Of a DNA stretch of 64,000 nucleotides, positions 5,186 to 52,137 are shown piece after piece (position 1 is the first letter of the stretch; each line of letters opens with the position of its first letter). The position numbers were made by a program, and so were the translations under genes. The DNA lies in NCBI GenBank assembly GCA_964035545.1, contig OZ037770.1, positions 4,693,662 to 4,757,661 on the forward strand, given 5' to 3'. Under the pieces are notes generated by a model, which worked only from the letters and a program-made list of their open reading frames with translations, made no database searches and was not told the origin of the DNA. Source of the stretch: Bugula neritina (Eukaryota; Bryozoa; Gymnolaemata; Cheilostomatida; Bugulidae).

Positions 5186-6312
5186 CTTCCTGGTAAGAAA
5201 TAGCTATCTCCATGTGGTTGTACCCTTACTCCCCCAGCGTGCTCGGTCTCGGCCTGGTGGGGCAGTGCCCGTTTCGACCGCGGTTTTCGGGGCCTTTTAG
5301 GGCGAGGATTTCTCCGCGGAGGGGCGATTGGTTCCCCTCCGATGTCCGGATGGACCTTGCCAGCCGGCTCCATTTCTGGTAGCCAGCTGAAGCGGTTAGC
5401 GAGAGGCGGTGTGAATGGTTCCAGTCGCCGCTCTGGTCGACTGGTCCAATGGGGTGCCTGCCACTCGTGGGGGGTATACCGCGCTGTCCGTACGAACGCC
5501 CTGCGGTATCCACCTCGTGGTTCCTTCATTCTCGGCCTGCGGGGTTTGGAGGCGTCCGCGAGCCGTGGAAGTTTAATCGTTTCCCAGATTGTGGGCAACT
5601 CGAGCGGAGATTTCCTCGTGTGCTGCATCTTCAACATAAAGCAGCTGGCCTCAGAACCTCTACCCTCGGCCTCAAAGGTCCTTGGGTGGGTTCTGTGGGG
5701 TTGGCACGGGCTAGGATCGCCACCAACTGTTCTAACATGGCTATCATGCGGTCCACCTCCGCTTCAAGAGGAAGGGTGGTGGTGGCGGCAGCCACTTGGA
5801 CTGGATGGTCCGGTCCCGAAGTGATTTGTTGGGAGCTCACTTTAGCTCGATAGAATTGTTTGGCCAAGATATAGGCTTCACCTTCATGCAGTGCATCCTC
5901 TATCGTGGTCACCCCTCTTGCATGAAGCTGGTGGTGGAAACCCAAAACATTGAGGGACTGTACAAAGGCGTCATAGGTGTAATGTTCCCGGTGTGTTTCT
6001 CGCAAGTTGCTGTATGCGATCTGTGCCAGTCTCTTCACTAGGGTAGCATGATCCTGTAGTGGTGTGCGCGCTTCTTAGTGCAACCTTTGTGAACGGGCCC
6101 TGGCGTCCACAGCGGTGATGCCAAAACGGGCCCGCAGCTCAGCATAGATCCCGTTTACACTGGATCCCAGTCCGTACGACTTGGCTTACTTCGTCAGCGC
6201 TGTCCGTAGTTGAATCAGGGCTACTCGTGGTGGCTATCGAGTGATGGCCATGACTTCGTTGAATTCTCGAATAAATTGTTCAACATCTTCTAGGCCCGTA
6301 ACATACTACACT
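5155..6312 (-). pseudogene. gag relic of the first Gypsy element
   Basis: The minus-strand translation begins abruptly near 6310 inside gag. It shows several in-frame stops up to about 6040, then an open stretch of 135 residues (6038-5631) typical of Gypsy gag. Around 5590-5640 one frame shows a CCHC zinc-knuckle remnant in which one codon is a stop and the His position reads Asn. The following open frame (5637-5155) is basic and Pro/Arg-rich and runs into the protease, with a frameshift near 5185. The N-terminal gag and leader are absent. Confidence 0.75.
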
Positions 6313-8637: not shown

Positions 8638-8934
8638 TACTTACAATTATACTGTTATATTATATATCTTTATAAAATACTTAAAATGTTATGAATCATA
8701 TATAATATGATACTCGTACATAATTGTAACTTAGACATACTTGTTTTCTTTCCTTAATTAATGTACTAAATCAAGGTATTGTATATAAACTTGTTATTGT
8801 AACTGCAACTTAGTACTATATTATGTGTAATTATTGTTATATTAATATTGGGTATCTTTATGAAAACTAATATATCAATTACCTGTATAGTTAAGTCTAA
8901 TAATAGAATTATTATATATTATTAGAATACAGAG

Positions 8935-11900: not shown

Positions 11901-13971
11901 TCATTACAGTGTTTAGTAATCTGTTCTAAGTATATTTTTATCCAGGTATTCAGTATGACAAGAAAGAGAGGAAGAGCTCTTATAATAAACAACAAGAACT
12001 TTGTTGAAAGACCAGACTTATGCAGGGAAGGATCAGATGCTGATGTTGAGAATATGTCTGCCATGTTGAAATCTCTCAAGTTTGATGTTGAGACACACAC
12101 AGACCTGACAGCAGAGGTATGTTGTTATGGTGGAAGTAATGCGAGCACTATTTAACCATCAAGTAGTTTTTCATATATAATGTCTTGTTTGTTCTTTAAC
12201 CAAATATTTTGTAAAGTTTGTAAAATATTTTACCAAAATATTTTTTTTTTACATTCACTGAATTATGTCTTTAATTGTACTTAAGAATTTTTCTAAAGCT
12301 ACATTGAAAATTTTGGGTCTTGTTAGTTTCTGCTCACTTTTTGGTCTTTTGTTAGGTTGATGAGAAAACTTTTTGCTCACATTGCATATAACTTTATAGC
12401 AATTATTTGACACTTTAAAATGAGGTAAATTTGTTTGACTGTTTAAATTCGTTTTCAAATTTGTAGGAAATGCTGTCTGCTGTGAAGTCTGAGGTGAAAA
12501 AGGGGAAACACAAAGAGTTTGGATGTCATATACTGGTTGTTATGACTCTTGGTAGAGAAGATAACTGTATCTATGGAACTGACCTCGAGAAGGTCAACCT
12601 CACTGACCTGTGTGATTTGCTCACTCCTTTGTATTTCGATGGAATAAGTAGAAAACCTAAGGTTGTCATACTAGAAGCCTGCAGTGGAGGTAGTTTGTAG
12701 TATAAATTTGAACTTTTAGTTCAATGGTTGAACTAGTAAATACTCCCTGTCAGAAACTAGTCATCTAATTAATTGGCGCTTCAACATGATTCATAGTTTG
12801 GATTGCTTGAGCAACTGGGTGTCTTGAGATTGTTTAGCTCACAATATTAAGGTCGTTGTTATGTATGTGTTACAGCAAACATTGAAGTAAGCCCAGACAG
12901 ATCTGGTCTTGCAGCAGATCAAGAAGAAGAAACTGAAGCTGCCTCTTCTACACCTTCTGAAGCTAATGAAGAAGACAATGATGAATATCCTGAACCGCCA
13001 AGAAAAAGAATTAGACCCATCAGACCAGTCTCACCACCAGAACCTAGAATAGAAGAGTGTAGAACTGTACGGGATATAGATGATCTTCTTGTTCTGAAGA
13101 GTAGCGTCTGCTGTAAGTATAGCAAGAGAAAGTTGTTCATTGGTTTGATAAATGTGCAGCTACAGTTTTTTTCAATCTAAAAGTCTGTTTCCTAAATTTA
13201 ATCTGACCATGCTATATGTAATCTTTTTCTTGTTCTTCGTAAATTGCGAGTTAATGTTCAAAATCAAACAGAATTTAGAAAATTTCAGGCTTGCTTTGTC
13301 TACACCATGCTTTGAGTTTCATTTAATTTTATTGCAGCATCAAAAAGACATCCTGAGTATGGATCTCCTATGATTAGAGCTCTAGTATCTTCAATCTACA
13401 AACATGCCTGTCATCGTGATCTCTACACCATCTTTCAGCAGGTGAGTTTAAAATGATAATTTTGTCAATTTCTACTTGTATATAGAATTATTTTTATGTT
13501 TAGCTGTGTGATAATTTACAATTTGCATGTCCAATGAATAAAATATAATGTAAATTAGGTAGCTTCTTAAAACGTGCTCGTATTTTTACTAATTTATATT
13601 TCTCCCACTGTGCCTGTTGTAAAGGTTAAAGCCCAACCTCAAGCTTTTCTTTAATATATTCTATAGTGGTAGCAGACAACTCTCAGGATCTACTTGCTTA
13701 GATTGAATATGAATAGGAAAGCCTAGTTTAGCAGCTGAGAGTTGTACCTTATCACAGCTATAAGTAGTTAGTTAGAACACAGTCTTACTAGTCATTACTT
13801 ACTCTACAGGTGGACACTAAACTAGTGAAGAAACTGTATACAGGTGAAGATTCAGAGAGAAGCAGAAATTTGGTTGCAATCTGGAATACTCTTCCATTCA
13901 GTAAAAGACTTTACCTTTTTCCTGGCTTCGATGGGTTTAATAGAGAGGACAACTCCTCACTCAGCACATAA
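8935..13971 (+). CDS. LRR-Roc-COR-caspase fusion, copy A (5' incomplete; catalytic His lost)
   Basis: Exons seen: 8935-10928, 11255-11347, 11530-11678, 11946-12116, 12467-12689, 12876-13112, 13338-13441, 13810-13971. They join in frame into 1043 codons ending at TAA. Exon 8935-10928 encodes the last LRRs, a Roc GTPase (P-loop GNTMAGKT, G3 DMGGQE, G4 THKDK) and COR. The next two exons give a short helical segment and an acidic linker. The last five encode a caspase: p20 with RGRALIINNKNF and CREGSD, then p10 with SKRHPEYGSPMI. The His position in p20 reads Leu (MTLGRED, codon 12548-12550), and the active-site box is LEACSGG rather than QACxG, so peptidase activity is not expected although the Cys remains. 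The first exon starts in phase needing an upstream exon; none is visible to the left, where a Gypsy relic ends at 6312. The 5' part is either beyond the window or lost. Confidence 0.88.
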
Positions 13972-23730: not shown

Positions 23731-24794
23731 TGTTGTGAGAGAATCTAATGTCAGCTGTCAAGTGTGGTTACTGCAGAGTGTGTTGTACTGTGGACAGTAA
23801 ACTTCTAACACTCAGTTTGATTGGCTTAACAGGAATATCTGGTCAGTTACTTACAACAAACCAGCCACTGTGTAACATATTAATATAACACTGAAGTAAA
23901 GATTTACACTATAATCTGATTGGTATAGATATATCATTTGCCTACATCAGTGTTGGTATATTTAGCTTGCCTCCAAGGACTGCATTGTGCAAACAAATTT
24001 CTCATTGACCAATGGAGACAGTGCTATTGCAGGCACAAATTCATTCAAACAGTTCTATCAAATTAAATAAGGGCTTACACTATAATCTGATTGATATAAA
24101 AATACATTATTATTTGCATAAGCTTTTATATATGTCAGCATATTAAACCAACTGAGCAACTGGAAGTAGGAAAAGACAAACATCTGGTTGAATGAAAGCT
24201 AATGTTGTCACAAAATATTCCGCTAAAAATGTAAAATGAAACTGAAGTTGCATTTCATACTTTCACAACTTTCAGTCAAAAATTCAATTTGGTCAAATTA
24301 AACATTTTACCAAGTTGAATTGCATTGGAAAAGCCAGTTGCAAAAGTCTTCAATTGTGACAACCTAATTAGCCAATTTTAAAATAACACTTAAAAAAGAA
24401 GATAACTCCTTGTGGATGGTGATATTCAGTTATGACTTTAAAGACTAGATGACATATTTAAAGTATGTTTATAATTATATTGGCTACGCCTTTTATTATT
24501 ACTTTAAATTGCAATCAGCTTTACAAATTAACTACAGTCTCAAATGACTTCAAATAGCAATTAAGTCAGCCATATTTGACTGTTAGAAAGTGAGTTTCAG
24601 CAGCAATAAGATTTCAATGGGTTTCAATAATTTATTATAAAAGAGTACTCGCTCAAGTGAAATTGACTGAAACCGGCACTTTTTTCGAAATAAAAATAAA
24701 AATCAGCAACTAGTAGTTCGAGACATCAATGTAATTAATATTTCAGATGTCAAATCATGGTTATAGTAAAAGAGGGGTATCGTCACATTGGCAG
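23731..24794. other. Upstream flank of PRODH A
   Basis: AT-rich, with no coding frame of note. It contains a locally repeated phrase (near-identical ttacactataatctgattg at about 23907 and 24077), suggesting a small duplication. It would hold the PRODH A promoter, but no specific element can be identified. Confidence 0.45.
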
Positions 24795-26498
24795 TGAGAG
24801 GTTACTGAGAAGAGGACACCGAGAGGAGGATACTGAGAGGAGGATACTGAGAGAAGGGTAGTGAGAGGAGGATACTGAGAGGAGGATACTGAGAGGAGGA
24901 TACTGTGAGGAGGGTACTGAGAGGAGGATACTGTGAGGAGGATACTGAGAGGAGGGTACTGAGAGGAGAATACTGAGAAGAGGGTACTGAGAGGGTACTG
25001 AGAGGAGGGTACTGAGAGAAGGATACTGAGAGGAGGATACTGAGAGGAGAGTACTGAGAGGAGGATACTGAGAGGAGGATACTGAGAGGAGGATACTGTG
25101 AGGAGGGTACTGAGAGGAGGATACTGTGAGGAGGGTACTGAGAGGAGGGTACTGAGAGGAGAATACTGAGAAGAGGGTACTGAGAGGGTACTGAGAGGAG
25201 GGTACTGAGAGAAGGATACTGAGAGGAGGATACTGAGAGAAGAGGATACTGAGAGGAGGACACTGAGAGGAGGATACTGAGAGGAGGACACTGAGAGGAG
25301 GATACTGAGAGGAGGGTACTGAGAGGAGGATACTGTGAGGAGGGTACTGAGAGGAGGGTACTGAGAGGAGAATACTGAGAAGAGGGTACTGAGAGGGTAC
25401 TGAGAGGAGGGTACTGAGAGAAGGATACTGAGAGGAGGATACTGAGAGGAGAGTACTGAGAGGAGGATACTGAGAGGAGGATACTGAGAGGAGGATACTG
25501 AGGGGAGGATACTGAGAGGAGGGTACTGAGAGGAGGGTACTGAGGGGAGGATACTGAGAGGAGGATACTGAGAGGAGGATACTGAGAGAAGGATACTGAG
25601 AGGAGGGTAGTGAGAGGAGGATACTGAGAGGAGGATACTGAGAGGAGGGTAGTAAGAGGAGGGTACTGAGAGGAGGATACCAAGAGGAGAGTACTGAGAG
25701 GAAGGTACTGAGAGGAGGGTACTGAGAGGAGAATACTGAGAAGAGGGGAATGAGAGGAGGGTACTGAGAAGAGGATACTGAGAGGAGGGTAGTAAGAGGA
25801 GGGTACTGAGAAGAGGATACTAAGAGGAGAGTACTGAGAGGAGGGTACTGAGAGGAGGGTACTGAGAGGAGGGTACTGAGAGGAGGGTACTGAGAGGAGG
25901 GTACTGAGAGGAGAGTACTGAGAGGAGGGTACTGAGAGGAGGGTAGTGAGAGGAGGGTACTGAGAAGAGGGTACTGAGAAGAGGATACTGAGAAGAGGGT
26001 ACTGAGAGGAGGATACTGAGAGGAGGGTACTGAGAGGAGGGTATTGAGAGGAGGGTATTGAGAGGAGAGTACTGAGAGGAGGGTACTGAGAGGAGGATAC
26101 TGAGAGGAGGACACTGAGAGGAGGATACTGAGAGGAGGGTACTGAGAGGAGGATACTGTGAGGAGGGTACTGAGAGGAGGGTACTGAGAGGAGAATACTG
26201 AGAAGAGGGTACTGAGAGGGTACTGAGAGGAGGGTACTGAGAGAAGGATACTGAGAAGAGGATACTGAGAGGAGAGTACTGAGAGGAGGATACTGAGAGG
26301 AGGATACTGAGAGGAGGATACTGAGGGGAGGATACTGAGAGGAGGGTACTGAGAGGAGGGTACTGAGGGGAGGATACTGAGAGGAGGATACTGAGAAGAG
26401 GATACTGAGAGGAGGGTACTGAGAGGAGGGTACTGAGAGGAGGATACTGAGGGGAGGATACTGAGAAGAGGGTATTGAGAGAAAGGTACTGAGAGAAG
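24795..26498. repeat. 14-bp minisatellite, about 120 units
   Basis: Tandem GAGAGGAGGRTACT with variants (R = A or G; ACTGTGAG and AGAAG forms). One strand is almost pure purine. Because 14 is not a multiple of 3, any frame on the minus strand cycles through all three phases of a stop-free unit. This produces long Ser/Leu/Pro/Tyr-rich open frames that are not genes. A higher-order block with a shortened unit (GAGAGGGTACT) recurs near 24966, 25159, 25366 and 26190. Confidence 0.97.
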
Positions 26499-26582
26499 TT
26501 TATGCTGTTACAGAGCCCGGTACGGCAATGTGTGAACAAGGGGATAGTCTTCTTTGCCCCAATTTGTTCAGATAACCATAAT

Positions 26583-26650
26583 ATTGCATTGCATTGCATT
26601 GCATTGCATACGGATAATGTATAATGCATTGCATTGCATTAGGTCAAACA
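26583..26650. repeat. ATTGC pentamer microsatellite
   Basis: Two short runs of the 5-bp unit (attgc) separated by about 20 bases, next to the minisatellite. Confidence 0.85.
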
Positions 26651-27260
26651 AGTGTTTGGTTAAACTGACCAAGTTAAACAAAAGTTAGGGTAGATGCTCA
26701 GTGGCTCATTTCTATACTACATATAAATATATATTCTTCAACTAAGCTATAATAATATGCACAATATAACTGATACAATATCATATAATACATGTTGTTC
26801 ATGTTGCTATATACTTGGTAAAAGCGTTCATCACTCAATCACAACCAAGCAATATAAGTTATTCATGAAGTTCTAAAGTGTGACTGTACAAGGAAAAAAT
26901 TATATCACCTCACTAGTGCCCAACTGCTAGCTACTAATAAATGTCACACGCATCAACGAAAATATAAAACAAAGTCATGCAATACTAGAATGAAAAAACA
27001 ACATTAACTATTAGATGCATATTATGTTGATTTTATTTTTAGAATATATTCACAGACATTATTTTAAATTAATCTTCATAAGACTAACTTATAAAATGTG
27101 ATAAATATAAACTCAAGACTGGTAAATTTAGTATATTCTCACAAAAAATATATGTTTTGTAGTGGAAATTTCAGATCAAATTACATGTTTATTAAAATGG
27201 TAAATCACTATAATTGATAAACAATACTTTTGATTTGATAAGTTTTACAGGGGCTAGTCC
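26651..27260. other. AT-rich intergenic
   Basis: No open frame, RNA gene or recognisable repeat seen. Confidence 0.4.
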
Positions 27261-27261
27261 T

Positions 27262-27402
27262 AACTAATGTAGTATTTACCATGTACTGTGGTATTAACAA
27301 ATTTAGTATTGACCATGTACTGTGGTATTAACTAATGTAGTATTGACCATCATGTACTGTGGCATTATAAACTACTGTAGTTTTAACCACTACAATATAC
27401 CT
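27262..27402. repeat. About 36-bp tandem repeat, 3-4 units
   Basis: Units of the form taatgtagtatt-accatgtactgtggtatta repeat three times. A fourth, diverged unit follows at about 27375. Confidence 0.8.
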
Positions 27403-27499
27403 TACTAGTTAACACTCGTGGATGTCTTAGATAAGCTTAGGTTAAGTTTCTGAAGAAAACCATAACTTTGCGTTGCTCAAAAATTTCTTAAGTCAGATG

Positions 27500-28254
27500 C
27501 ACAGGATAGTTAAGGGCAACCTTTTAGTTCTAGCTGCTATGCTGATGATGCATTGTTATCATATAAGAAATCAGTCCCAGTAAAATAAAATCTTACCTAA
27601 TTATGCTAGAATCAAAATTTAAAAACTATGTTGTAGATAGCTTTCTTCCTCAGCGCGGTTTTTTTGGAATTTTTAATTTTCCATTTTTTGGCTAAGCTAC
27701 AGACAAAAAACTACCCTTTTTCTCCTATTTTTAGCTGAAAAAACATCATGTCAGTCCCAGTAAAATATCTCAGCAGGAAAACATAATATCTGAAAAAAGA
27801 AAACACTGTTGGAATCCTGAGATGTTTCTGCAGCGTGGTTTTTGTAATGTTTTTAATAGCTTTTATAGATTTTCTATAAATTAGTGATTTATACGCTGAA
27901 AATGAGATAATTTTTCTTTATTAATAAGCACTGCGCATCACTTCACGCTTCAGTGAACGCGTAGAGATGAGAAGATTTTGGCTTGTCCATTACTAATTAC
28001 AGACCTGCTAGACTACAAGCTAGTGAATAGCTTGGTGTGTAATTCATTTATAGAGTAGCCACAATGGAATGTTGATATATAATGCAGCCCTAATTGAGCT
28101 TGCTGTTTATTGGTCATAGTCTAATATTAGGCTAAACATACACAGGCAGGCAACACGCATGCCACCCACAGAACAATATTATAGCAAGAACCTAGACTAC
28201 ATTGTGAGCTAAATTTATGATATTCTTAGTAAGGATGCCCTTAACTATCCTGTG
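27500..28254 (+). mobile_element. TIR element (MITE-like), copy 1, 755 bp
   Basis: Starts CACAGGATAGTTAAGGGCAA and ends with the inverted version, ...TGCCCTTAACTATCCTGTG. It is flanked by TG on both sides, a possible 2-bp target duplication. It carries no transposase. A second copy in the opposite orientation lies at 30005-30754; the ends and most of the interior align. The superfamily is not recognised. Confidence 0.82.
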
Positions 28255-36007: not shown

Positions 36008-39000
36008 ATGGCAACAGCTGGTGAGTGAATTTAAATACTATTTTATACACTTATTTCTTGGAAAGTAGAAATGTTTAAACTCTGAAGATATGTTGATAAT
36101 ATGCCACCGCAATATAATACATCTATAAAACTATTTGATTATCACTACTCTCTATAGCACTGTTTTATGTCACCAATTAGCGTATTGCTTTGAGAATAGT
36201 AGAATAGATAATATTATGCAAGCAGTTGGGTTAGAGTTGTCTTATCTCAACACAATAAACACTGAACTATAAACCATACATTAATTGATTATTTAGAAAG
36301 AATATAAAGCTATCCGATAAAATATATGTTATGTTAGTCATTTTTATGATTACTGAAATCCACCATAATATATGACAGGTGTCAGAACGACATACATCAT
36401 CGGCTAGCACTGTGTAATAATCACACTGTCACTGTATGATGTTACAGAGAAGATGAGAATTTGGTTCAGACATTCTGGACAGCCTCCTGTAGACTGGTTA
36501 GATGTACTGTGTGCTGATACCAAGTCATATACTACTGCTGAGGTAAAACGTGAAGTTGGGAGTTACGATATCACAGATCTCCAACTGGAGAGAACAATTC
36601 CAAGTAACATTGGAGAGATTGCTGGTAAAGCCCTGTGTCTACATGTTTCTAACCTGACTGACGGAGCAAGTCTAGACAAGTGAGTGTCTATTAAAATAAT
36701 AGTGCAAATGTTAAACAAGTTCATTTGTGTTATTTATTAAATGATAATTGATAATATGTGGTGCTGAAGCATGTTTTTGCTCATAATATATTCATACAAT
36801 ATAATATACATAAAAATTAGAACATGTGCAACATTGCATGTAATCCAAATGAGCTTATAGCTGCAATAGCTAGGGAGTGTAAAACTGCCTGTACTGTTAT
36901 TCGATGTCATAGACTAAATCATATTTTATGTAAATATAGCTAAAATATGAGTAATGTACAGAATATGATATATTATACAAAAGACTATCTTATGTCATCA
37001 ACTGCAAATATACAATATGAAACATTACTTAATATATTAACTTACATAGCAATTTAGACTGAGGCCTTATGTACTATAAACTCACAGCTAACTTTGCAAA
37101 ATGAAGCTTCCTCTCCTCACCTACAACATAATATAACTGAAACTCTTTGCTGTTTTTGCAACAATGTATCTGTTTTCTGCATGTTTTTTTCGGTTAAATA
37201 CACAAGTAGCATGATATAATAGCATATATTATTTTAATATGGTAGACATAAATACATGACACACTTTATATTACAGTGTGTGTCAGCTGACTCAGTTAGA
37301 GAAACTAGACATAGGATGGAATCCTCTCAACACAGTACCAGAAGTTGTGTCATCACTTACATCACTCAAAGAGCTGGTTATGTGGAGCTGTGGTTTATCT
37401 ACTCTACCTGAGAGGTTTGTGTTTCACAATATTTCTTCTGTTTCAAACATCCAATATTGCACATCTTTAATGCTTCTCAAGTAGTGGTATGCTATGTTAT
37501 CATAATATATTGCCAACATATGTTAAAAACATAAGTATAAGCATTTTTTGAACTTATCTAATAGTTTGTCCTAACTTGGAAATAATACAGTTTTATGGTA
37601 TGCCATTGTATATTCTTATATCACAATTATTTTTTTAATTATAATAATAAAAGAGCCATCTGTAGTTTACTTGCGATCATGGAAATAACTGAATGCTTCT
37701 TAGCTTCTTGTCTTATTGACTTTGACTATCCATTACCAAAATGAATCTGTATTTTGCATGTTTTACCTGGTTGAGTGCACCAAATGAATATAATCTATAC
37801 AATATATATTATTATGATACAGTAGACTATATATATCCTATTTTTTATGATTATTACAGTCTATGATAATGAATAATATATGCTGAAGCTGAAGCATATT
37901 TTTGCTCATAATATATTCATACAATATAATATACATCAACATAGTAATATGTGCAACATTGTATGTAATCTAAATGAGATTATAGTTGTAGAAACTAGAG
38001 AAGCTGCCTCTACTGTTACTTGACAGTGTTGATTAAATCATGTTTTATGTATATATAGCTAAAAACTGAAGTAGTGTACAGTTTACAATATATTATACAA
38101 AAGACTATGTTATGTCATCAACTGCAAATGTACAATCTTAAACATTAGTTAATATATTAATTTACATAGCAATTTAGAGTGAGGCCTCATGTACTATAAA
38201 CTAACAGCTAACCTTGCATAATGAAGTTTCCTCTCCTCACCTACAACATAATATAACTGAAACTCTTTGCTGTTTTTTGCAACAATATATCTGTTTCCTG
38301 CATCTTTTATGTTGAATACACAAGTAGTCCGATATAATGGTATATATTATTTTGATATATGGTAGGCATAAATACATGACACACTTTATATCATGTTACA
38401 AAACCTAAATATGCATATTTTTTGAAGTTATCTAATAGCTTGTCCTAACGTGTAAATAATACAGTTTAATGGCATGCCATTGTATATCCTTATATCACAG
38501 AACTTTTGATAATCAATAATAAAACAGCCATCTGCGGTTTACTGGCAATCATGGTAATAATCGAATCTTTCTTAGCTTCTTGCATCAATCACTTTGATTA
38601 TCCATTACCGCAATGAATTTGTTTTCTGCATTTTTTACCTGGTGGACCGTGCTTAGCAATATTATATGACGTAACATGAACCTCCCCAACTCTGACAAAA
38701 TAAGACCAGCTAAAGCCACCTTTAATTCTGAGATGAATAAAAATGATTATATGTATAGATACAACACCCGGGAAAATAAAGCATCTACATTTTGTACACC
38801 AGACCTATCTCCTGAAGAGCGTGACCGTGACTATAAACTTAGAAAACTGAGGGACGAATTAAAAGCAACTCACTCAGACAAAATGTTTCAAGTAAGAAGT
38901 TTGCCCATGACTCTGATACTATTGCTTCAGAATCTCTCTGGGACCCCAGCAAGACTAACACCACAACTGATAAAAACACAGCTGGACATTAAATATATAC

Positions 39001-42000
39001 AAGTCATACTTACCACTCTACTGCTAACTAACCTGTCCAACTCAACTATCATGGCAGAACAAAAAGAGTTTAAAGTAATATCTTGGATTTGCAATGGTAT
39101 CAGGGGTAAAATACATGAACTTTCCATGCTATTAGATCAGCAATCGCCAGATATCTTTTGCTAATGTGAAACAAAACTAGATTCATCAGTTTCTGCTAAT
39201 GAGTTAAACAGAGACTACACCCTGTACCGGCGTGATCGAACTGACGGACTAGGACGTGGAGGTGGAGTCCTTATAGGCCTATCCAATGAATGTCCCTTTG
39301 TTGTTAGTAGAATCAATGTCTCACACCCTGGGGAAATCATTGCCCTTGATTTATCAATCTGTGGATACTCTTTCACTATTGCATGCTATTACCGTAGGCC
39401 CTGTATAAAACAAGTAGAAGATATAGTAAATTGGTATTATGATCAAACCAATCCGAACATTGTTATGGTTTGGGATTTTAACCTACCTGACATTGGCTGG
39501 AATGATAGTAACAGGCCTGTACTTAAAACAACAAGAGAAACTAACTTGCATCAATTGTTCGTAGATTTTATAATTTCGAATAATCTTTCTCAGGCTATCA
39601 ATAAACCTACTCACGACAAAGGTAATACGCTTGATCTAATTGTTACAAATGTAACTACCACTAACCCCTGAGTTGAGTCATCCTGCTCTGACCATTTTAT
39701 TATCAATTTCAATGTGTTGGCGGATAATGTTATTCAAAGGACAGCATCTTTAACCAAACCAAAACCATATTGGCAGTTTGAAAAGGCAGACATAACGAAC
39801 ATCACCGTGGACTGTTACTCCCTACATTGTAAAATTACCTAAGAAATGTAGCGCTGAACAATTATGGCATAATCTCAAATCTGGAATACTTCAGGTAGCA
39901 CATTCTAATATCCCATACAAATTTAGAAAGAAAAAAAATCAGAACTCTGGATATCCCAAGAAACTGAAAGTGAGATCAGAAAAAGAAAACACCTCCACCT
40001 AGCTTGCCTTAATGATCGCACGCCGCACAACATTTTAAAACACGCTACCCAGTCCCGGTACTGCAAGAAATTGTGTAACAGGGACTATAATAATTATATA
40101 AACAAACACATATGCAATACATTAGAGCAGGGTGATTCAACACCTCTTTATCAGTTCATAGCAAATAAAAAGGGCAGCTCAAATACTGTACGCCAACTAG
40201 ACAACATCCCCCCTAACAACAATACTGCTATAGCTGAATCTTTTGCGGACTCCTTTGCTTCTGTGTTTTCTATTGATGATGGTAATATCCCTCCCTGCAT
40301 TCCACCTCAAACTATATCATCTCCTATACAATTTGATCCTCGGGGAGTCCTAACACAGCTCACCAAACTCGATCCACGAAAAGGTGCTGGCCCAGATGAG
40401 CTTTCTCCTGCACTTCTAAAATATCTTGCACATTATATATATGAGCCCCTGACAAAGGTTTTTCAGTACTTTTACGATACATCTCAGACACCACAAGACT
40501 GGAAAACAGCAAACATTGTACCGATCTTCAAGAAATGAAGTCGTACAGACCCGCTGAATTATAGGCCAATATCACTCACTTCTATCATATCCAAAATCTT
40601 CGAGCATATCGTATCACATAATATCAACTGTTTCCTCAAATCAAATGACCTGTTTTACCCACACCAACATGGTTTCAGGACAAATCATGGCTGCGATACT
40701 CAGTTGTTGAATACCGTGAGTGAATTTATAGATTTTTTCAACGAAATGATAGCGGTTGCCCTCGCTGTCTTAGATTTTTCAAAGGCCTTTGACGCTGTGC
40801 CGCACCAAAAACTACAGATAAACTGCTAAATATCGGAATAGCTGATAAAACTGTCAAATGGATTTTTTCATGGCTTCAGAGGCGTCTTCTTTCAGTCTGT
40901 GTCAACAACGTCAAATTGGCCACTAGACATGTGACCTCAGGAGTGCGCCAAGGCAGTGTTTTAGGACCATTGTTATTTAATGTGTACATAAATGACATGC
41001 ACTCTGCGGTAGCCAACAGCAAGCTTAAACTATATGCGGATGATTCCTTGTTGTACAAACCAATCACAACACCTGCTGATTCTAGTTTATTTCAGAATGA
41101 CTTAGACCATCTTATAACTTGGGCAGACAGTTCTCAGATGAAGTTCAATATAAATAATTGCGAGCATATGACAATTCAACGCTCCACTGCAAATCCTCTA
41201 GTGTCTCAATACAGCATGAATAATGACCCCTTACAATGTGTTGACAAAGTATTATACCTTGGTGTCACGATTGATAATAAACTGTCATTCGATCAACATA
41301 TAATAAACATTTGCTCAAAAGCTAATAAATTATTACACATGCTGATGCGCTGTCTAAAAAAGGCTAAAAGTAAAACCAGAGCCATAGCTTATGAAACAGT
41401 CTGTTGCCCTATACTAGAATCTGCGACCCACACCTGGTCTCTATTTAAATTGAAAAACATCAACATCATAGAAGGTATAAATAGAAAAGCCTTCAGGTGG
41501 AAATTCTGTAAGAGAAAACGAGATCATATAACTGAGCTCATCACAAACTCTAATTGGGATAGCCTTGCACTAAGACGTGACAATGCAGACCAAAAAATGT
41601 ACTTTTGTATGCTTTCTGGTAGTGCCGCTATAGACCAGGGCCGGTTCTCCCTTCATTTTGCAGAGTCTCACAATACTAGACATGGTGCTATTAAGGGCAA
41701 TATCCTTACCAAAACTGCCAAACATTCATATAAACATCGCATCCATAAACTTTTCTAATGATTCTAGCTGCTTTGCCTAACTGATTATAAGCACTTAACA
41801 CCGACTCTGCTTCGTAACATCTGAAGCAGTGCTGTGTATATTTATTTATTTATTTACTTTTTTTTTCTCTCCTGGCAGTAGCTAGCTATTGAGCTTTGAA
41901 TCAAAGCATAATTAACTATATTCTTATCTCGTAGACAAAATGGTTTTCTTCCCTGCTACTGATAATCTAAACAATTGTTCATACACCACTGCATCTCGAT

Positions 42001-45000
42001 AAAGGAGCCAAAGCGCTCCGAGTGAGATTAATTAGATGAGATGAGATGAGATGAGATGAGATGACGTTCCATTGCTGGAATTATTGTGTTTTCTGCACTT
42101 TTACCTGGCTGACTGTGCTTAAGCAATATAGTCTATACAGTGTATAGTATTATCACACAGTAGACTACATATATCTCACCCTTTATGATTATACAGTCTA
42201 TGTCAGCTGACTCAGTTAGAGAACCTATACATAGCAGGGAATCCTTTCAACACAGTACCAAAAGTTGTGTCATCACTCACATCACTTGAGGAGTTGGATA
42301 TGAGGATCTGTAAATTATCTGCTCTACCTGAGAGGTTTGTGGAGTCTTTTATTATTTCGATCATTCAATAATTCACATTTTGATATAATGCTTACCAAGT
42401 ATTGCTAAATAGTGTATCCTTATGTACCGTTAAAAAGCATAAAGCTATAAATTGTAATTTGCTTGAGATTTTATTATATTATAGTTTCTAGAAACTTGAA
42501 AATAAACATGTTTTAATCATTTGGCATTACATACTCTAATGGTATAAACCTTGGTTAACAAATAATGTAAACTATCAGCCCTGGTTTGTAAACAGGCTCA
42601 TTGTGGTCTTCAGTCTCTACTGATGTTTTATTGGTAAAACTGTCGTGAAAACTACAATTAATGAAATAGTGAATATGCCATAATGAATGATAATATGTGA
42701 TAAAACTTTCATCAGTGATAATTTGACACTAACTAATAAGCTTCAAGTAAAGAACAAGTCTTGCTATAAAAATCAATATACACCATCTAAATTATTAAAA
42801 TTGATATTAAAAAAGATAATACAAATGCCATAAATGATTGTCAAAAATACTACAATAACAATAATTACCTTGTTAGACCATCCGGGAATGAAGCTTATAA
42901 CTTTGATGTTAATGCAGTAGGTATTTATTCTCTACTTTGATAATATTGATTTAAATGGAACAAAATATTTAACATAACAAGTGAAAAGTTACTCAGCAGG
43001 TTATGCTACATGTTAGCTGACTGAAAGTGTAGCATAGAATGAGAGCTGAGAGTAAAATATTCTTTAATGAATTAATCATTTCAGGAAGCTGATGGTGTAA
43101 AAAACTATTTATATAACTTAGTCATAGTAAAATTATACACATGAGGAAATCATGTTGACTGTCGTGTGCAAAATTGTCACAGCCATAAAAGCAAAACAGC
43201 TACATATACATGACTAAGCAATGGTTTTTCTAATTATAGGCACGTTGGTTAACTTTGTTTGTTTTGATGAGAGCAAGAAATTTTACTGGCATTCCAATTA
43301 ATTACAAATAATATATAGCACCAACTTCTAGTTTACTAGAATCTATTTCAATCATTCAATAATTCACATTTTGATATAATGCTTACCAAGTATTGCTAAA
43401 TAGTGTATCATTGTGTACCATTTAAAAGCATAAAGCTATAAATTGTAACTTTGCTTGAGATTATATTAAAGTTTTACGAAACTTGAAAATAAACATGTGT
43501 TAATCATTTGGCATTATATACTCTAACGGTATAAACCTTCCTTAACAAATAATATAGCACCCACTTGTAGTTTACTATAGTATCTATTTCCCATTAAATG
43601 CTTATTAGCTTTCTGTATTTCACTTTGAATACGCATTGTCAGAATAAATTTGTTTCTTGGATATTTTACCTGATTGGATATACAAGTAGTATAATATACA
43701 GTATATATTATTATCCTGATACAGTGGATTACATATATTATGTACCTTTTATTACAGTTTATGTGAGCTGACTCAGTTAGAGAAACTACACATAGCAGGG
43801 AATCCTCTCAACACAGTACCAGAAGTTGTGTCATCACTCACATCACTTGAAGAGTTAGATATGAGAATGTGTGAATTATCTAATCTACCTGAGAGGTTTG
43901 TGGAGTATTTAATTGTTTCAAGCATTCAATAATTCACTATTTGATATAATGCTTACCAAGTATTGCTAAATCGTCTATCATTATGTACAGTTAAAATGTA
44001 TAAAGCTATAAATTGTAATTTGCTTGAGAATATATTGTATTAAAAATTCACGAAACTTGAAAATAACCATGTTTTAATCATTTGGCATTACATACTCTAA
44101 TGCGGTATAAACCTTGGTTAACAAATAATATAGCACCCACTTGTACTTTACTAGTATCTATTTCCCATTAATAGTTTATTAGCTTTCTGTATTTTACTTT
44201 GAATACGCATTGTCAGAATAAATTTGTTTCTTGGATATTTCACCTGATTGGATATACAAGTAGTATAATATACAGTATATAATATTATCCTGATAGAGTT
44301 TATTACATATATTATGTACCTTTTATTACAGTCTATGTCAGCTGACTCAGTTAGAGAAACTAGACATAGAAGGGAATCCTCTCAACACAGTACCAGAAGT
44401 TGTGTCATCACTCACATCACTTAAAGAGTTGAATATGCAGAGCTGTGAAATATCTACTCTACCTGAGAGGTTTGTGTGTCACAATAAGTTTTATATATCA
44501 CTTTTAACATTCAATAACTATTATTTCATAGCCATATTTCAACACAGTAAATACTACATTAAGATGCAAACCTACATATGAATCTCACCGTTTCTGGGGA
44601 TATTGTCAATTAACACACTATAATCTATAGAAGTTTCCTCGACTTCACAAATTATTTTATAGTATTTCAATATCTTTTTTGAAATGCTTACCATGATAGG
44701 TTGACTAGGCTTTTTTTCAGAAATCGTTTTAATAACTCTTTTCAATATATTTTAACTATAGCCACTTTTGTACACAAAATTAGTTTTTATTATTTTATTA
44801 TAATAACATATTATCTCATTATTTTCAAATTAGTCAGAAAACCACTTCCTTATATTTTTAATGACATCATGTATGACATACTTGACTCAATCAACTGTAT
44901 TGTGTAAGGCTCATTAGTAACAATGCACAGTGGATTATAATATGGTATGTTTTACTTGAATAATTCAAGTTTGAGGTACAATTATTTCGACATGAAAGAT

Positions 45001-48000
45001 CTGACATTATATTTTTAACCTAAGAAGAGAAAACAAATCATATATTGCCACCTTGTTTTTTGCATGCTCTACTTTAGTTGTCTATTTCAACTCTCACTTT
45101 ACTAGAAGCCAATTTTTATTCTATTCCTGTTCTCAAATAACCCATGAATATATTTCTTTATATTTACTTTACATTTATAAGTTACTAATTAACTGCCCTT
45201 TAGAAGTGTAACATGTTCCTTGCGAGACTATGACTTTCCAGAGTTGTATTCTCTCTTAGTGAAATAATTCACAACTTCTACTTCCTGTCTAAAAATATGC
45301 TGCATTTATTAGAATACTTAGTGGGAAGTTGTGTCAGAAGTATTTTTTTTTTTATTGAAACTACTTTAATGCCTTGTGTAGGTGTTTCAGAGCTGTACTG
45401 TGTTCCTATTTGATGATAAATTACATGTATTATGGCACATAAAACAATATTCCTTATAATTATAACATCCATATAGTAGAATATCAGTGTGAACAGTTAC
45501 TCAGTGATCAGAAGTGTCAGAAGTATTTTATTTTTACTTCACATTACTTTAATGCCTTATGCAGCTGCCACAAAGCTGTAGCCTACCATGTTCCTATTTG
45601 CTGATAACTGTATTATGCATATGGCACATACTAGGAATTTTGTACTCTGTACTATAAAATATTATTCCTTCTAATAGAATACTTGTGTGAACAGTTACTC
45701 AGTGATCTGCCATATAAATGAAGATTTCTGTATGATAGTATTCTGTCTAGGGTGTGTTTTTATGACAGTTCTTAGTACGAATGTAGCACTTTTCTTACCA
45801 AATATACTTATAATTATGCTGTTATATATATATATCTCTATGAAATACTTGAAACTTTATGCATCGTATATATATATAACATGGTACCCGTACATAATTG
45901 TAACTTAGACATACTTGTTTCTTTCCTTAATTAATGTACTAATTCAAGGTATTGTATATAAACTTGTTATAGTAACTGCAACTTAGTACTATATTATGTG
46001 TAATTATTGTTATACTAATATTGGGTATCTTTATGAAAACTATTATATCAATTACCTGTATAGTTAGGTCTAATAATAGAAATATTATATATTATTAGAA
46101 TACAGAGATTAAAGAAGTTACAGAAACTCAACATTTCAACGAATAACCTCACCACTCTCCCATCTTTAGTGTGTGCATTGAGTAATCTGTACACACTGAA
46201 TTTATCTGGCAACAAATCCATGACATCCTTGAACCCTGAGATACTACAGCTAACACATCTTGGGTTCTTCTATACATCTGGATGTGATGCTCTTACATCT
46301 CCTCCACTAGAAGTCTGTGAAAGAGGACTGGATGCTGTGCGACAATACTACACAGATTTGGCTAAAGGTGCTGGTAGAAATCTTCCAGTTGCGACAATAG
46401 TCATGCTGGGGAACACAATGGCAGGAAAAACCAGTTTGATCAGAACATTACAGAGCACTGACAAGAAGAGAGTTTTAACTGACCGAAGTCCTAATGCAGA
46501 GTATGATGAGACCACAAAAGTTTTCAATGTGGAAGAGGTGGAGGTGAATGGTACAACTCTTCGTCTCATAGATATGGGAGGCCAGGAGGTCTACCATATC
46601 ACATACAATTTAACACTGAGACAAAATTGTGTACCAGTAATTGTAGTCAACATGGAGCAGTATGATCAGATTTCGAAAATGTCTACAGACAGAGAGGCTG
46701 TGAGAAAGTTGGCCTTTGACTTCATGTCTCACCTCTATCTCGCTCATCCATTTCTTGGCCCACCTAAGCTTGTCTTCACACACAAAGATAAGTTTCGGAG
46801 TGAAGTTTTTCAACAGCTTCGAAGAAATTTCCTTAAAGTGTCTGAGCAGTTTTGCAAAAATATTCTTGAAGAAGAGAAAGGTTTAGAAGGTGACTTTGCT
46901 CGAATTCAACATTTCACTCAATCAAACGGAAAAGTGTTCTCCGACGACAACATATATGAAGTTGGAAAATTTGACGAGTACAAGATATTTGAATCGATTA
47001 AAAAATCTCTTCTTCAAAGTTGCCGACACTTTATCAAACCCCTTCCAAAAGTCTGGGAGGATGTCAACACAAAAGTGTTGTCCTTGCAGTCCGCACACAA
47101 TACCTTTGATGAAATCCTGGCAGAGATGAAGAAAGAACGGAATGATATTGATAGAAACCAATTGGATACCATCATCATGTACATGCATGATTGTGGAAAA
47201 GTTCTCTGGTATAAGAATGTTGATGCACTCAGGCCATACATATTTCACAAGATTACAGAAGTTACCAAACTGCTGTGTGTCTTGTATCACCATGATCCAA
47301 ACATCTGGCAGAGCAGAGTAGATCAGTTCAAACCATATTTTTCAAGAGGAGTGAGAATTGAGAAGCAGGACTTTGAAGAGTCTGTGAACTACTTCCAAGC
47401 AACTGGCCTAATGATGCAATCCCTTCTTGAATATCTGATAGCTCAGGAAACTTTATTTAGAAATCCGGGTGATGTTGAAATTGGGCTTTGTTTGCTCAGC
47501 ACGTTCCGTTTGTTGTATGGCCCTAGGAATGATGAATCCTATGATTCCTACTTCATAATCCCTCAGTTTGCCAAAGAATCTTACAGCCTCTCCTACACTC
47601 AACAAAAGGAGTTACTGCTTCATACTGAGACTCAGTTTAATGGTCTGGCATTACCGCAGCATGTCTACCATCAAATGACTGTTGGTTTGTTAGAGATGTT
47701 TTCTAAAGAGTTTGCTACAATGCAAGTGGAGAGGAATGGTGCTAACGTCTACCAAGATGAAATATACACACAACTGGTACACGATTACGCATTGAGAAGA
47801 GTTTTACTCTACGTTTCATCTGATGCGTCCAACATTTCCAGAATGTGGGAGAATCTCATTTCGGTCAACAACAACATCCTCAGACATGTTATGGAGACTT
47901 GGACTGCTAGTCGACCAGTCACTGCCTGCATTTGTGCTCACTGCTTGCTACTTGGGGTTTCCTGTCCTAAAAAACTCTTTCACTCCAAATGGTGTCTTCG

Positions 48001-51000
48001 ATCCTTAAAAAACCTGCTGCCACCTAATGTCAAGAAGTGTGGTGGAGCTTCAAAGATGTTATGTAATGGAGAGGAGGTCCCTAGCGCTTTAATCCACCCA
48101 TGTATGTTCACTCATAAAATTGAATTTCAACAGAAATATTTTCAATAATTGTTTCAACAAATAAATATTTACTACTTTGTGTTGCAAAAAAACTTTTAGT
48201 AAAAATTTTGAGCAATTAGTTGAATATTTTGTCTTAATTATAAAATCGCAACTTAAAAGCATGAGCTCCTATTCACATGTCATTATCTCGTAATTTAAAT
48301 TATTTAAGGTTTAGTAATACAAATCTTGTTTGTTCTATTCAGGTGAGAAATTGTCAGAAACAGAATCAAATAAGTTGAAAAAGCTAGTTGCTGAGCTCAA
48401 ACTGCGAGGAGATCAGAACAATTCAACTGGTAAATTTTTTTAGACAGAACTTGATGTGGGTCATTTTACTTAATTTAGTACAGGAGTATGACCTGTGTCA
48501 TGAACACACCTAAATAATCAAACCTCCTCCTAATTTTGCTTGATTTCCCATGTTTTTTCCTAATTATTCAGCTACTTTTGACTGCAGACTGTCATGAAAA
48601 AACCATATTTCTCTGAAATCAAAAGTAGCTGAATAATTAGGAAAAAATATGGGAAATCAAGCAAAATTTAGAAGAACCTTGATTTTTTAGGTGTGTTCAT
48701 TTAAGCTTTACTACTTTTGGGCAAAACTGATGTTCATTAGCAGCTAAAATGTAAAAAAATAGCTAAAAACAGGTGTGTTCATCACTTTTGGGCAAAAACT
48801 TATGTTAATTAGCAGTTAAATTGTAAAAAATAGCTAAAAACTGGAGATTTCCAGTGTGTACTAAATTAAGTAAAATGACCTATGTGTACAGCCACCACTT
48901 GATAAAACTCCTTGTTTTGCAAAGCTGGCCATACATGTAGATATCTAAGAGCTTTTTTATGCATGCGTTCATTGTAATCCATTGCTTTTTGCTGCTAGTG
49001 GTTGAGAAAAATTTTAATTGTATGGCTTTTAAATGATGACAAAAATCAACTGTTCACATGACTGTCTAGAAATATTAGCTGATGATCTGAGTGATCTCTC
49101 TGAAGATGATGACAATCTGTACCTTGATGGAGAGAATGGGGAAGGCCTGAAGCTGATACAACTTGAATTGAAGCCAACCACCAACCCAAAGATAAAGCAG
49201 CTATTCTCAGATACTGACAAGGTGAATGTATATTCAGTTGATGAATATACGTCTATAGACTCTTTTTACTAGATAATCATGACTATAGTCGTTCAATTAC
49301 TTTTAGAAAAAGTTCAATCTGAACGCAATTTTTCCATTTACTTCAGTTAACTTTTAATTTTTAGCCATGTCTGTTTTTGGGCTGTGTCTGTTTGGTTAAG
49401 GTTTAATCTGTTGTCACACGGTTAGGAAATATTTGTAGTGTCGAGATTTCTGGCCCCTTTGATGTATTGATTTGTGCACCTGCATGCATGGTTGAATATT
49501 TTCTGCAACATATTCTGATTTTTTTGTGAAGAGTAGCAGTAGTATAAACGTTATTCCAAAAGATATTAAAGGTCAGATGTAAATAAAGACTAAAAGAGAG
49601 GTAGAGAGGTCCGTGGTGTCCTTAAGAAATAAACTGGATGTAGTGTTAAGATCGCCTATAAGTCTCTGTGGAATAATCTCAGTGGGACAAAATTGTTTTT
49701 CGCCTGGAACCTTAAACTTTTCTGTACCTTCGCCATAATTTGCTATTGCATTCTATGGTATCTTTAAAGTTAGTAAATACTTTGTTGAAGAGGTTTGGCT
49801 TTTGAAGTTTAGTTCACATATAATGGTTTAAATGTCAAAATTGATGATATCTTGTCAGTATGGCCATGCATTGTCATTATTTACTTCCATAGCTTTACCA
49901 ATTTATATACTTGATTTAGAAAAATGTAGGATTAATTACAAGCTATTATCAACAAATCAGAATTAATATACTTGTAGCCTGCTATTGTTTTTTAAACCAT
50001 ACCTCAATGATATTTTTTTATGCTTAACCGACTACCAAATGCAATGAACTATTTCGTTAGTAAAATTATCATTCGGTCTGATACATTAAAATTAATTTTA
50101 TTCTAGTTTATGCTACCCAATTGGCTAATAAAATAAAATCTAAAATACAAAAAGCAATTGAGATATAAAATGTTTTTTTTTCAAAAGTATGTAATTTGAC
50201 TGGTTTTTTACAAGACTTAAAAATTTAAGACTTGTTTGGAGTTTGTGAATTACTACTGTATGCAATGCTTTAAGCATATTTGTATCCAGGTGCTCAGTAT
50301 GACCAGAGAGAGAGGAAGAGCTCTGATAATAAACAACAAAAATTTTGTTGAAAGACCAGACTTATGCAGGGAAGGTTCAGATGCTGATGTTGAGAACGTG
50401 TCTGTCATGTTGAAATCTCTCAAGTTTGATGTTGAGACAAACACAGACCTAAAGGCAGAGGTATGTTGTTATGGTGAAAACAATGCGAGCACTATTTAAC
50501 CATCACACTTGAAAGTTGACCCAATGATGGACTGTAATTGTTCAGTTTATCAATGCCTAAAAATTAGGACTATATAAAAACCATAAGCATGTTTGCGGGT
50601 TACAATTTTGTTTTTTGCAGGTTGGATAATTGTTATTTTATTCAGTTTTCATAACTTTGTATCAGTTATTAAACATAGTTATTTTCATATTGGTAGGAAA
50701 TGATGTCTGCTGTGAAGTCTGAGATAAGAATAGAGAAAAACAATGGCTTGGGCTGTCAAATACTGGTTATTATGACGCATGGTGGAGAAGATAACTGCAT
50801 CTATGGAACTGACCTTGAGCAGGTCAACCTTACAGACTTCTATGATTTTCTCGCTCCTCTGAGTCTGAAGCCTAAACCTACAGTTGTCATCCTACAAGCT
50901 TGCAGTGGAGGTAATTACATTTTTGTATAGAAAACTTTCATTTTTAGTCAAGTAGTGAAAATAATACAGAGACCCTTGAAAAGTTTTTTCTGTACTGATC

Positions 51001-52137
51001 AAATTTCTTTTTTACTCATCACGGTGCAAGTTTGAATGCGTTTGTTTTTCTTGCAGCAAACATTGATGTGAATCCAGACAGATCAGGTCTTGCAGCAGCT
51101 CAAGAAGAAGAAACTGAAGCTGTCTCTTCTACACATTCTGAAGCTGATGGTGATATTGTATATCCTGAAACACCCATTGTAATGAGACCCATCAGACCTG
51201 TCTCACCACCAGAATATAGAGTAGAAGAACACATGACAAGACTGGATATTGATAATCTTCTTGTTCTGAAGAGTAACGTCTGCTGTAAGTATAATAAGAG
51301 ACAATGATAGGCTGATATTTCTAAACTGTTGTACTTTGTCACCTATCTAAAAATTGTTCTTTGCCGTTTTCTTGCGTTACTTCCACATTTTTAATCTTGT
51401 TGATTTGATAAGCTTCTAAACTGAGGTGACTAAAATGTTTTCTAGAACTTTGAAATTTAAATTGTGTTACACTTTAGCTTAAAACATCTTATACTTTGTC
51501 TGACTAGACCATGATTTTGGCTGCATTTAAAATTATTATAGCATCAAAAAGACATCCTGAGTATGGATCTCCCATGATTAGAGTCCTAGTATCTTCAATC
51601 TACAAACATGCCTGTCACCGTGATCTCTACACCATCTTTCAGCAGGCAAGTTAAAAGCTCAAAAGTTTTTTTGCTGTTTTAACTTTTACGCCAGAAACTA
51701 TTTCTCATCGTGGCACCTCTTTCATCTCCATGTTCAAACCATTATGTCATTTGAAAGAAACAATTTAAGTTGTTCTGAGTACGAGAGAAAGTCATTCAGT
51801 GCTTTACTCGTTTGAATCGTAACTAGTCCCCTTTATCAAATGACATTACTGTAGTGGACAACTCCAAAAGTTTTACTACTCAGAATTGTTAAAGTAGGAT
51901 GCAATATTCTAACAGCTCAGAGTTGTACCTTATTACTTATGATAGTGAATTTATGAACAGTCTTACTAGTCATTACTTACTCTACAGGTACAGACTAAAT
52001 TAGTGAAGAAACTGTATGCAGATAAAGATTCAGAGAAAAGCAGAAATTTGATTGTAATCTGGAATACTTTTCCTCCCCGTAAAAGACTTCACCTGTTTCC
52101 AGGCTTTGATGGATTTGGTGAAGAGGCCAAATCTTAA
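36008..52137 (+). CDS. LRR-Roc-COR-caspase fusion protein, copy B, 1298 aa, 14 exons
   Basis: Exons: 36008-36020, 36448-36679, 37277-37414, 42197-42334, 43758-43895, 44332-44469, 46108-48101, 48343-48429, 49070-49221, 50290-50460, 50697-50910, 51057-51284, 51542-51645, 51988-52137. Total 3897 nt, in phase at all 13 junctions. The start has context gccATGG. Residues: about 5-80, small unrecognised domain; 82-330, LRRs (four 138-nt exons each give two 23-residue repeats); P-loop GNTMAGKT 367-374, DMGG 421, THKDK 490 (Roc); COR to about 850; Cys-rich about 870-930; acidic linker about 960-1010; caspase p20 1011-1138, p10 1215-1298. Catalytic His1095 (MTHGGED) and Cys1136 (LQACSGG) are present, as are Arg1037 and Arg1218, expected to bind P1 Asp. 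The intron after exon 13 has a GC donor (gcaagt). I infer a cytoplasmic GTPase-switched caspase. I know of no standard animal family with this architecture. Confidence 0.9.
36720..38660. repeat. Duplicated intron unit in the LRR-exon region
   Basis: About 36730-37275 and 37860-38400 are paralogous intron segments (both contain gctcataatatattcataca). The second unit reaches the place where the LRR exon should start (after gacacactttatat near 38390), but the exon is missing. Another exon-start remnant (ttacagtctatg) lies at about 37855. This indicates that exon-intron units were copied and some exons later lost. Confidence 0.7.
38673..42060 (+). mobile_element. CR1/L2-like LINE, broken, in an intron of fusion gene B
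   Basis: Non-LTR retrotransposon in the sense orientation. It begins inside the C-terminal part of ORF1 (DLSPEERDRDYKLRKLRDEL), so it is 5' truncated. The endonuclease starts about 39060 (EFKVISWICNGIRG) and hits a TAA at 39162-39164 where Leu is expected. DFNLPDIGWNDS lies near 39475. The RT region includes KGAGPDELSPALLKYL, a TGA at 40536-40538, then NYRPISLTSI, VLDFSKAFDAVPH, GVRQGSVLGPLLFN and the intact catalytic box YADDSLLY at about 41033. It ends with a GATGA microsatellite tail. ATGACGT occurs at both edges (38666-38672 and 42061-42067), a candidate target-site duplication. CR1/L2-like is a judgement from the motifs and tail. Confidence 0.85.
38676..41758 (+). pseudogene. LINE ORF1 tail plus endonuclease-reverse transcriptase, interrupted
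   Basis: Open pieces are 38676-39164, 39465-39671, 40071-40538 and 40916-41758. Stops at 39162-39164 and 40536-40538, and shifts between the pieces (for example near 39830, 39935 and 40815), interrupt one ancestral frame. The last piece (280 aa) carries the RT fingers-palm end and a normal C-terminus. The catalytic Asp-Asp pair survives, but the protein cannot be made whole. Confidence 0.83.
42034..42064. repeat. GATGA pentamer tail of the LINE
   Basis: About six units of the 5-bp sequence directly follow the LINE 3' end. Simple tails of this kind are usual for CR1-group elements. Confidence 0.85.
42335..44331. repeat. Tandemly copied intron units between LRR exons
   Basis: The phrase attcaataattcac-tttgatataatgcttacc recurs at about 42365, 43357 and 43926, each at the start of an intron unit. 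At 43357 there is no LRR exon in front of it, so an exon-less duplicate is present. The same units share the aacaaataatatagcaccca segment. This explains how the four 138-nt LRR exons (all phase 2-2) multiplied. Confidence 0.75.
48459..48880. mobile_element. Hairpin MITE, 422 bp, in intron 8 of fusion gene B
   Basis: Perfect 24-bp terminal inverted repeats (GGTCATTTTACTTAATTTAG...) lie at 48459-48482 and 48857-48880. A long inner inverted repeat (48528-48580 against about 48620-48672, containing cagctacttttga and its complement) makes most of the left half foldable. It is absent from the matching 182-base intron of copy A. ATGTG flanks both sides and may be the target duplication. No coding capacity. 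Confidence 0.82.

Follow-up and report, generated by a model that had tools for sequence, protein, structure and literature searches.

A predicted family of LRR-Roc-COR proteins carrying their own caspase in the bryozoan Bugula neritina

Where leucine-rich repeat (LRR) sensors activate caspases in animals, the signal is normally relayed by NACHT ATPases and adaptors and by CARD or death domains. A locus in the bryozoan Bugula neritina raises the question of whether an LRR array, a Roc GTPase with its COR region, and a caspase can be parts of one protein. The window analyzed here is a stretch of 64,000 nucleotides (C6:4693662-4757661, contig OZ037770.1 of the 215.8 Mb, 295-contig assembly GCA_964035545.1) and contains two related loci, copy A and copy B. 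As read from the genome, the LRR-Roc-COR portion of copy A and its caspase very probably form a single polypeptide in vivo, and sequence comparison makes copy A one of at least 58 members of a large family that is locally clustered.

The arrangement was examined across the genome using the large exons that encode Roc and COR. The set of 58, a lower bound, combines 39 Roc matches in stop-free frames no shorter than 460 codons (from 150 listed, 150 of 338 first-look candidates having been scored) with 21 COR-A matches in frames of at least 502 codons (from 23, two with short frames being dropped), after removal of duplicates. Among the matches listed, 51 of the 58 large exons are followed on their own strand by a caspase match at a distance of 2.2-8.8 kb. 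None is preceded by a listed one within 10 kb on that strand, and none has one in antisense (0/58 in each case). The remaining seven (A, L017, L026, L027, and L031-L033) were read directly and all carry caspase exons, which brings the downstream, same-strand total to 58/58.

Rebuilt from sequence, copy A comprises 14 exons between window positions 36008 and 52137 on the forward strand, spliced in frame into 1301 codons plus a stop. The single open frame of 14 exons proposed by the first-pass annotation is borne out, with its count of 1298 codons corrected. Twelve of the 13 introns are GT-AG and one is GC-AG. The exons are as follows:

36008-36020, forward strand: exon 1, four codons plus one base from a presumed ATG start, placed by frame and GT donor
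36448-36679, forward strand: exon 2, N-terminal region of about 77 residues
37277-37414, forward strand: exon 3, LRR exon, 138 bp, phase 2-2
42197-42334, forward strand: exon 4, LRR exon, 138 bp, phase 2-2
43758-43895, forward strand: exon 5, LRR exon, 138 bp, phase 2-2
44332-44469, forward strand: exon 6, LRR exon, 138 bp, phase 2-2
46099-48101, forward strand: exon 7, last LRRs, Roc (P-loop GNTMAGKT), COR-A, and a COR-B-like region, the least certain part
48343-48429, forward strand: exon 8, linker
49070-49221, forward strand: exon 9, acidic linker (DDLSDLSEDDD)
50290-50460, forward strand: exon 10, first part of caspase p20
50697-50910, forward strand: exon 11, caspase p20 with catalytic His (MTHGG) and QACSG box
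51057-51284, forward strand: exon 12, intersubunit linker and presumed first p10 strand
51542-51645, forward strand: exon 13, caspase p10 (SKRHPEYGS), followed by the GC donor
51988-52137, forward strand: exon 14, C-terminus and stop

A Pfam scan to E 0.1 listed no match for exon 2; a stretch 74% identical to it is present upstream of the LRR array of paralogue L028. Intron 3 contains, at window positions 38670-41758, reverse-transcriptase-like open frames that by eye probably belong to a long interspersed nuclear element. A pseudogene was rejected for copy A on the grounds that the frame is intact and that the median ratio of nonsynonymous to synonymous substitution (dN/dS) is below 1 in each of exons 7-14.

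The exons that join COR to the caspase were followed through 22 loci (A, B, and 20 fetched paralogues) in which exons 7-14 were modeled. All 22 yielded exons 8 and 9, 21 yielded exon 10, 20 yielded exon 11, and 14 yielded the complete set of exons 8-14; L015, which has no exon 10 in the fetched stretch, has a caspase match just beyond it, and exon 9 is poorly bounded in L009. Exon 7 ends in CAT|gta in 21/21 loci and exon 8 begins with GTGA in 17/22, L014 being excluded from exon-7 counts because no 5′ end of its exon 7 was found. Median dN/dS is 0.25 for exon 7, 0.63 for exon 8 (68 pairs), 0.34 for exon 9 (87 pairs), 0.20 for exon 10, 0.28 for exon 11, 0.75 for exon 12, 0.21 for exon 13, and 0.58 for exon 14, with exon 9 of L009 (also left out of the linker tree) and the mis-modeled exon 13 of L025 excluded. 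Between A and L020, exons 8 and 9 are 81 and 87% identical. The introns on either side of exon 8 can hardly be aligned between the two loci (39 of 241 bases of intron 7-8, 22 of 201 bases of intron 8-9), but intron 9-10 can, with 79% identity over 828 of its 1068 bases. At the level of sequence, exon order, selection, and the divergence of introns 7-8 and 8-9 are independent pieces of evidence for the joined model.

The alternative that two adjacent genes are present, one for LRR-Roc-COR that stops near exon 9 and one for the caspase that begins at the conserved Met of exon 10, is very improbable. That Met is retained in all 21 exon-10 copies compared, and intron 9-10 varies greatly in length, from 1.07 kb in A to 4.9 kb in L020, both as expected of such a boundary. 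The Met sits, however, in a Y-x-M at the start of the caspase domain, a motif common to animal caspases, so its conservation requires no initiation signal and it need not be an initiator. Order and strand are moreover identical in all 58 cases, exons 8 and 9 evolve at dN/dS below 1 and can still be aligned in A and L020 where most of introns 7-8 and 8-9 cannot, and the open frame continues from exon 9 into exon 10. A false join was rejected on the basis of the 58 downstream caspases and of these conserved linker exons, and the earlier conclusion against two neighboring genes joined by error is strongly supported by the paralogues.

The first-pass annotation had also placed LRRs, a Roc P-loop, COR, and a C-terminal caspase with p20, QACSG box, and p10 in one model. 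All of these were found, LRR, Roc, and Peptidase_C14 by Pfam and COR by profile comparison. A search of the joined copy A protein returned LRR families down to 2.8e-30, Roc at 1.6e-7 (above the cut-off), and Peptidase_C14 at 1.3e-26 over residues 1021-1259. At E 0.01, Roc was matched in 23/23 exon-7 sequences and COR-A in 12/23, and P-loop residues G104, G109, K110, and T111 are invariant in all 23; in the genome search, divergent paralogues match COR-A, some above the cut-off. COR is supported further by a profile-profile match of exon-7 residues 3-401 to five bacterial LRR-Roc-COR proteins (hhalign probability 99.9%). By sequence comparison exon 7 matches LRR proteins, bacterial Roco proteins, and LRRK1/2, and the top Foldseek matches of its model are the Chlorobium tepidum LRR-Roc-COR structure and LRRK1 over approximately 650-680 columns, the former being the best (654 columns, E 6.2e-14, TM-score 0.22). 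Membership of the ROCO family is indicated by the Roc domain and by a predicted COR directly after it.

For the caspase region, the closest structures among the best 60 of 176 matches in the PDB are animal caspases, led by an ancestral caspase-3/6/7 (p20, 1.3e-18) and then caspase-3 (about 4e-14). The p20 of copy A has its catalytic His in MTHGG and its Cys in QACSG, and the p10 sequence SKRHPEYGS of exon 13 lies inside the Peptidase_C14 match; its Arg presumably corresponds, by comparison with SWRN, to that of the substrate pocket. A bacterial origin of the whole protein was rejected in view of the introns and the animal-like caspase. Pfam to E 0.1 found no CARD, DED, or death domain in copy A, and neither NACHT nor NB-ARC is among the 15 families listed at that threshold. 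Because of the latter result, the product may work like a nucleotide-binding, leucine-rich repeat receptor (NLR) but is not one.

What might such a protein recognize? The LRR exons 3-6 of copy A, uniform in length and phase, each encode two repeats, and comparable arrays occur elsewhere in the family. L028 has eight 138-bp LRR exons (seven intact) spaced at about 560-580 bp, the stretch of L016 that was read contains five LRR exon matches (four complete), L025, whose caspase is of another type, has eight LRR exons of 144 bp, and L012 has two. Variation was analyzed over the 45 codon positions of 15 intact 138-bp exons from three genes. Six positions were assumed to face a ligand, namely three in each repeat of the motif LxxLxLxxN, the x that follows the second Leu and the pair preceding Asn. 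The ratio of nonsynonymous to synonymous differences per site (pN/pS) is 3.33 at these six predicted contact positions, 1.86 at ten listed as exposed, 0.74 at the other 35, and 1.20 over all 45. All six lie within the eight most variable of the 45 codons, for which the chance, calculated by hand, is 28 in 8,145,060. In this sample, amino acid change is in excess at the predicted contact sites.

The output module varies as well, as copy B illustrates:

8926-13970, forward strand: copy B, exons 7-14 of a paralogue, with an EACSG box kept and the catalytic His replaced by Leu

Within the window, neither an LRR exon nor an N-terminal one was found ahead of copy B, and the earlier statement that this second copy conserves the entire exon chain does not hold. 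Upstream of it, window positions 1-6000 are GC-rich (51-56%) with a retroelement-like open reading frame recognized by eye. Positions 24001-28000 show a strong GC skew (0.53, then 0.25). Exon 11 is readable in 23 loci, 16 of which keep both the catalytic His and Cys. One of the two is lost in the other seven, through Cys to Ser (L014, L016, L017, L021, and L022), Cys to Tyr (L031), and His to Leu (B). The position of the p10 Arg in SKRHPEYGS is occupied by Ile in L010, L012, and L013. Since copy B and other members have lost catalytic residues, the effector is predicted not to be a protease in every member.

Comparison of paralogues indicates that Roc-COR and caspase modules have also been exchanged. 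At least two main caspase types exist, 34-46% identical to each other, with a further divergent type in L031, and trees of exon 7 and of the caspase were built from 20 rows each (L015 not included). In L019, exon 7 groups at 100/100 with those of L018, L025, and L027 (84-89% identity), whereas the caspase is 89% identical to that of L024 and 39-43% to those of L018, L025, L027, and L023; its linker exons group with L024 (90/90). At the DNA level, L019 and L025 share 92% identity in exon 7, after which 13 of 107 bases of intron 7-8 align, as do 55 of 93 bases of exon 8 at 76%. L020 has an exon 7 that is 91% identical to that of L016 and 75% to that of A, and exons 10+11 that are 92% identical to A and 79% to L016. 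Its exon 10 DNA is near both (94-95%) and its exon 11 is not (93% against 81%), which places the break near intron 10-11. These two mosaics imply that recognition and output modules have been recombined. Copy A (46099-52137) and L028, about 370 kb apart, share 97-99% DNA identity between exon 7 (97%) and intron 9-10, both included, and 96-100% across the segment spanning exons 11-13, with lower values in exon 10 (92%), intron 10-11 (86%), intron 13-14 (89%), and exon 14 (91%); the dips in identity suggest local gene conversion.

Taken together, the domain order, which runs from an N-terminal region through the LRR array, Roc GTPase, COR, and acidic linker to the caspase, probably describes a family of one-polypeptide, GTP-switched, NLR-like caspase receptors. 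In such a receptor the LRRs would sense a ligand, the Roc-COR unit would switch with GTP and dimerize, and the C-terminal caspases would be brought together and activated by proximity; cleavage of their own linkers, in the acidic exon 9 or in exon 12, and cell death or inflammation would follow. Members lacking the catalytic Cys or His could serve as decoys or regulators in the manner of cFLIP. A role as an immune or cell-death receptor is favored somewhat less strongly than the receptor reading itself, and whether GTP-driven dimerization activates the caspase we regard as an evenly balanced question. The first-pass description of an NLR-like receptor with its own executioner is a good inference from sequence, in that the architecture supports it and the LRR arrays, contact-site variation, and large family fit it; it requires amendment where the effector is not a protease.

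Two other interpretations of the family compete with this one. The proteins could be scaffolds or GTPase-regulated initiator caspases for development or tissue turnover instead of immune receptors, which appears unlikely. Immunity is not proven by domains alone, and the nearest solved caspases, within the same best 60 of 176 structural matches, are of the effector type; yet a family of at least 58 members with tandem LRR arrays, contact-site variation, swaps, and dead members resembles a receptor repertoire rather than a set of housekeeping genes. A still less probable interpretation is that the family is mainly regulatory, consisting largely of pseudoprotease decoys that bind and restrain other caspases. 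The seven of 23 readable caspases without Cys or His, copy B among them, would suit this role, but the other 16 retain both residues, and copy A keeps QACSG, the His, and the SKRH Arg.

Several points nevertheless weigh against a GTP-switched, single-chain caspase receptor. The single-protein model is read from genomic sequence, and the ligand, the GTP cycle, and the cleavage are predicted. The splice models had the expected phases imposed, so that agreement in phase is not independent evidence. Exon 8 is under weak constraint, and its match is weak in L018 and L023 (E 4e-3 and 1e-2). The dN/dS values are Nei-Gojobori estimates from overlapping pairs, limited to synonymous differences of 0.05-0.55 (71 pairs for exon 7). 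COR-A in copy A scores only 0.0048, below the Pfam cut-off. Foldseek TM-scores are low (0.22-0.26) and the exon-7 model is weak, with a mean predicted local distance difference test (pLDDT) score of 57.4, so the COR-B half is likely, not firm. The LRR test covers 15 exons of three genes with few synonymous changes per site, is limited by these small numbers and by the shared history of the repeats, and used contact positions that were named after the sequences had been seen.

The family may extend beyond the 58 loci. Peptidase_C14 has 176 matches in the genome, and 89 of the 150 listed are not assigned to a listed Roc/COR exon; these caspase-like exons could belong to additional members of the family or to different caspase architectures. 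Roc-COR subfamilies that diverge further, with higher COR-A scores and caspase matches after them, occur at C7:5.06-5.11 Mb, C7:7.58-7.71 Mb, and C1:32.9-33.7 Mb, some of the caspase matches on C7 lying in open frames of 400-660 codons. Separately, several small contigs (C58, C90, C99, C133, C184, C202, and C281) carry strong small GTPase or cathepsin matches with in-frame TAA and TAG and no TGA. This pattern is expected if TAA and TAG are read as amino acids, and the contigs are likely from a ciliate associated with the host sample or contaminating it. Among 42 cathepsin-type matches, seven exons were read, none of which has the replacement of Cys by Ser that marks silicatein, and the sponge origin implied by the first-pass annotation was not confirmed.

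How does this design compare with known systems? NLR inflammasomes, in which a nucleoside triphosphate-switched LRR protein controls a caspase, resemble what is proposed for copy A. Relative to these and to CARD- or DED-bearing initiator caspases, the predicted bryozoan protein would have no adaptor step, with Roc-COR in place of NACHT and the protease in the same chain. Animal ROCO proteins (LRRK1/2, MFHAS1, and DAPK1) have the LRR-Roc-COR core in common with copy A, whose C-terminal effector is a caspase where they have a kinase. Bacterial LRR-AP-GTPase-COR conflict proteins are described as having at least 24 C-terminal domains, caspase among them (PMC8195603), and share with copy A the LRR-Roc-COR core followed by a C-terminal effector. 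The copy A family differs from them in its introns, its animal-like caspase, and its LRRs on tandem exons. Homology of Roc-COR-A extends to cyanobacterial and Bacteroidota proteins, and of the at least seven bacterial relatives found, five were scanned, none with a caspase match (0/5, E 0.001).

Among eukaryotes, the placozoan Trichoplax likewise has an expansion of ROCO genes, at least 17 in number, with CARD, death, TIR, and AAA domains as partners; the word "caspase" appears a single time in the paper describing them, inside the full name of CARD (PMC4104024). Brown-algal ROCO genes, described as candidate immune receptors with shuffling and diversifying selection, share tandem phase-2 LRR exons with the copy A family. 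Their LRR exons are 72 bp long and LRR-ROC-COR is reported as the sole architecture (PMC11378527); the bryozoan LRR exons measure 138 or 144 bp, each encodes two LRRs, and a caspase follows. The likeness is probably convergent. The figure legend on NLR architectures in a sponge NLR paper names CASc and COR, and a related fusion may be drawn there (PMC12909245). No animal LRR-Roc-COR-caspase protein was found among the papers listed by searches of the open-licence PMC literature, which does not prove that none is in print.

The new elements of the family are LRRs on tandem same-phase exons that vary at predicted contacts, module swaps, and catalytic losses. If the reading is correct, animals would have a second, shorter route in which sensor, GTP switch, and caspase lie in one chain, parallel to the predicted bacterial design. 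It would also provide a direct experimental handle on how ROCO proteins, relatives of LRRK2 included, pass on a signal, as a simple protease assay would serve as the read-out. With its LRR exon arrays and module swaps, the family is a candidate for diversified recognition in an invertebrate. More tentatively, this animal genome may hold at least 58 one-piece death receptors whose LRR exons multiply and vary at contacts and whose Roc-COR and caspase modules, active or dead, are exchanged, so that recognition and output would be reshuffled in the germline; alternative splicing of the LRR exons, which share one phase, may perhaps add to this.

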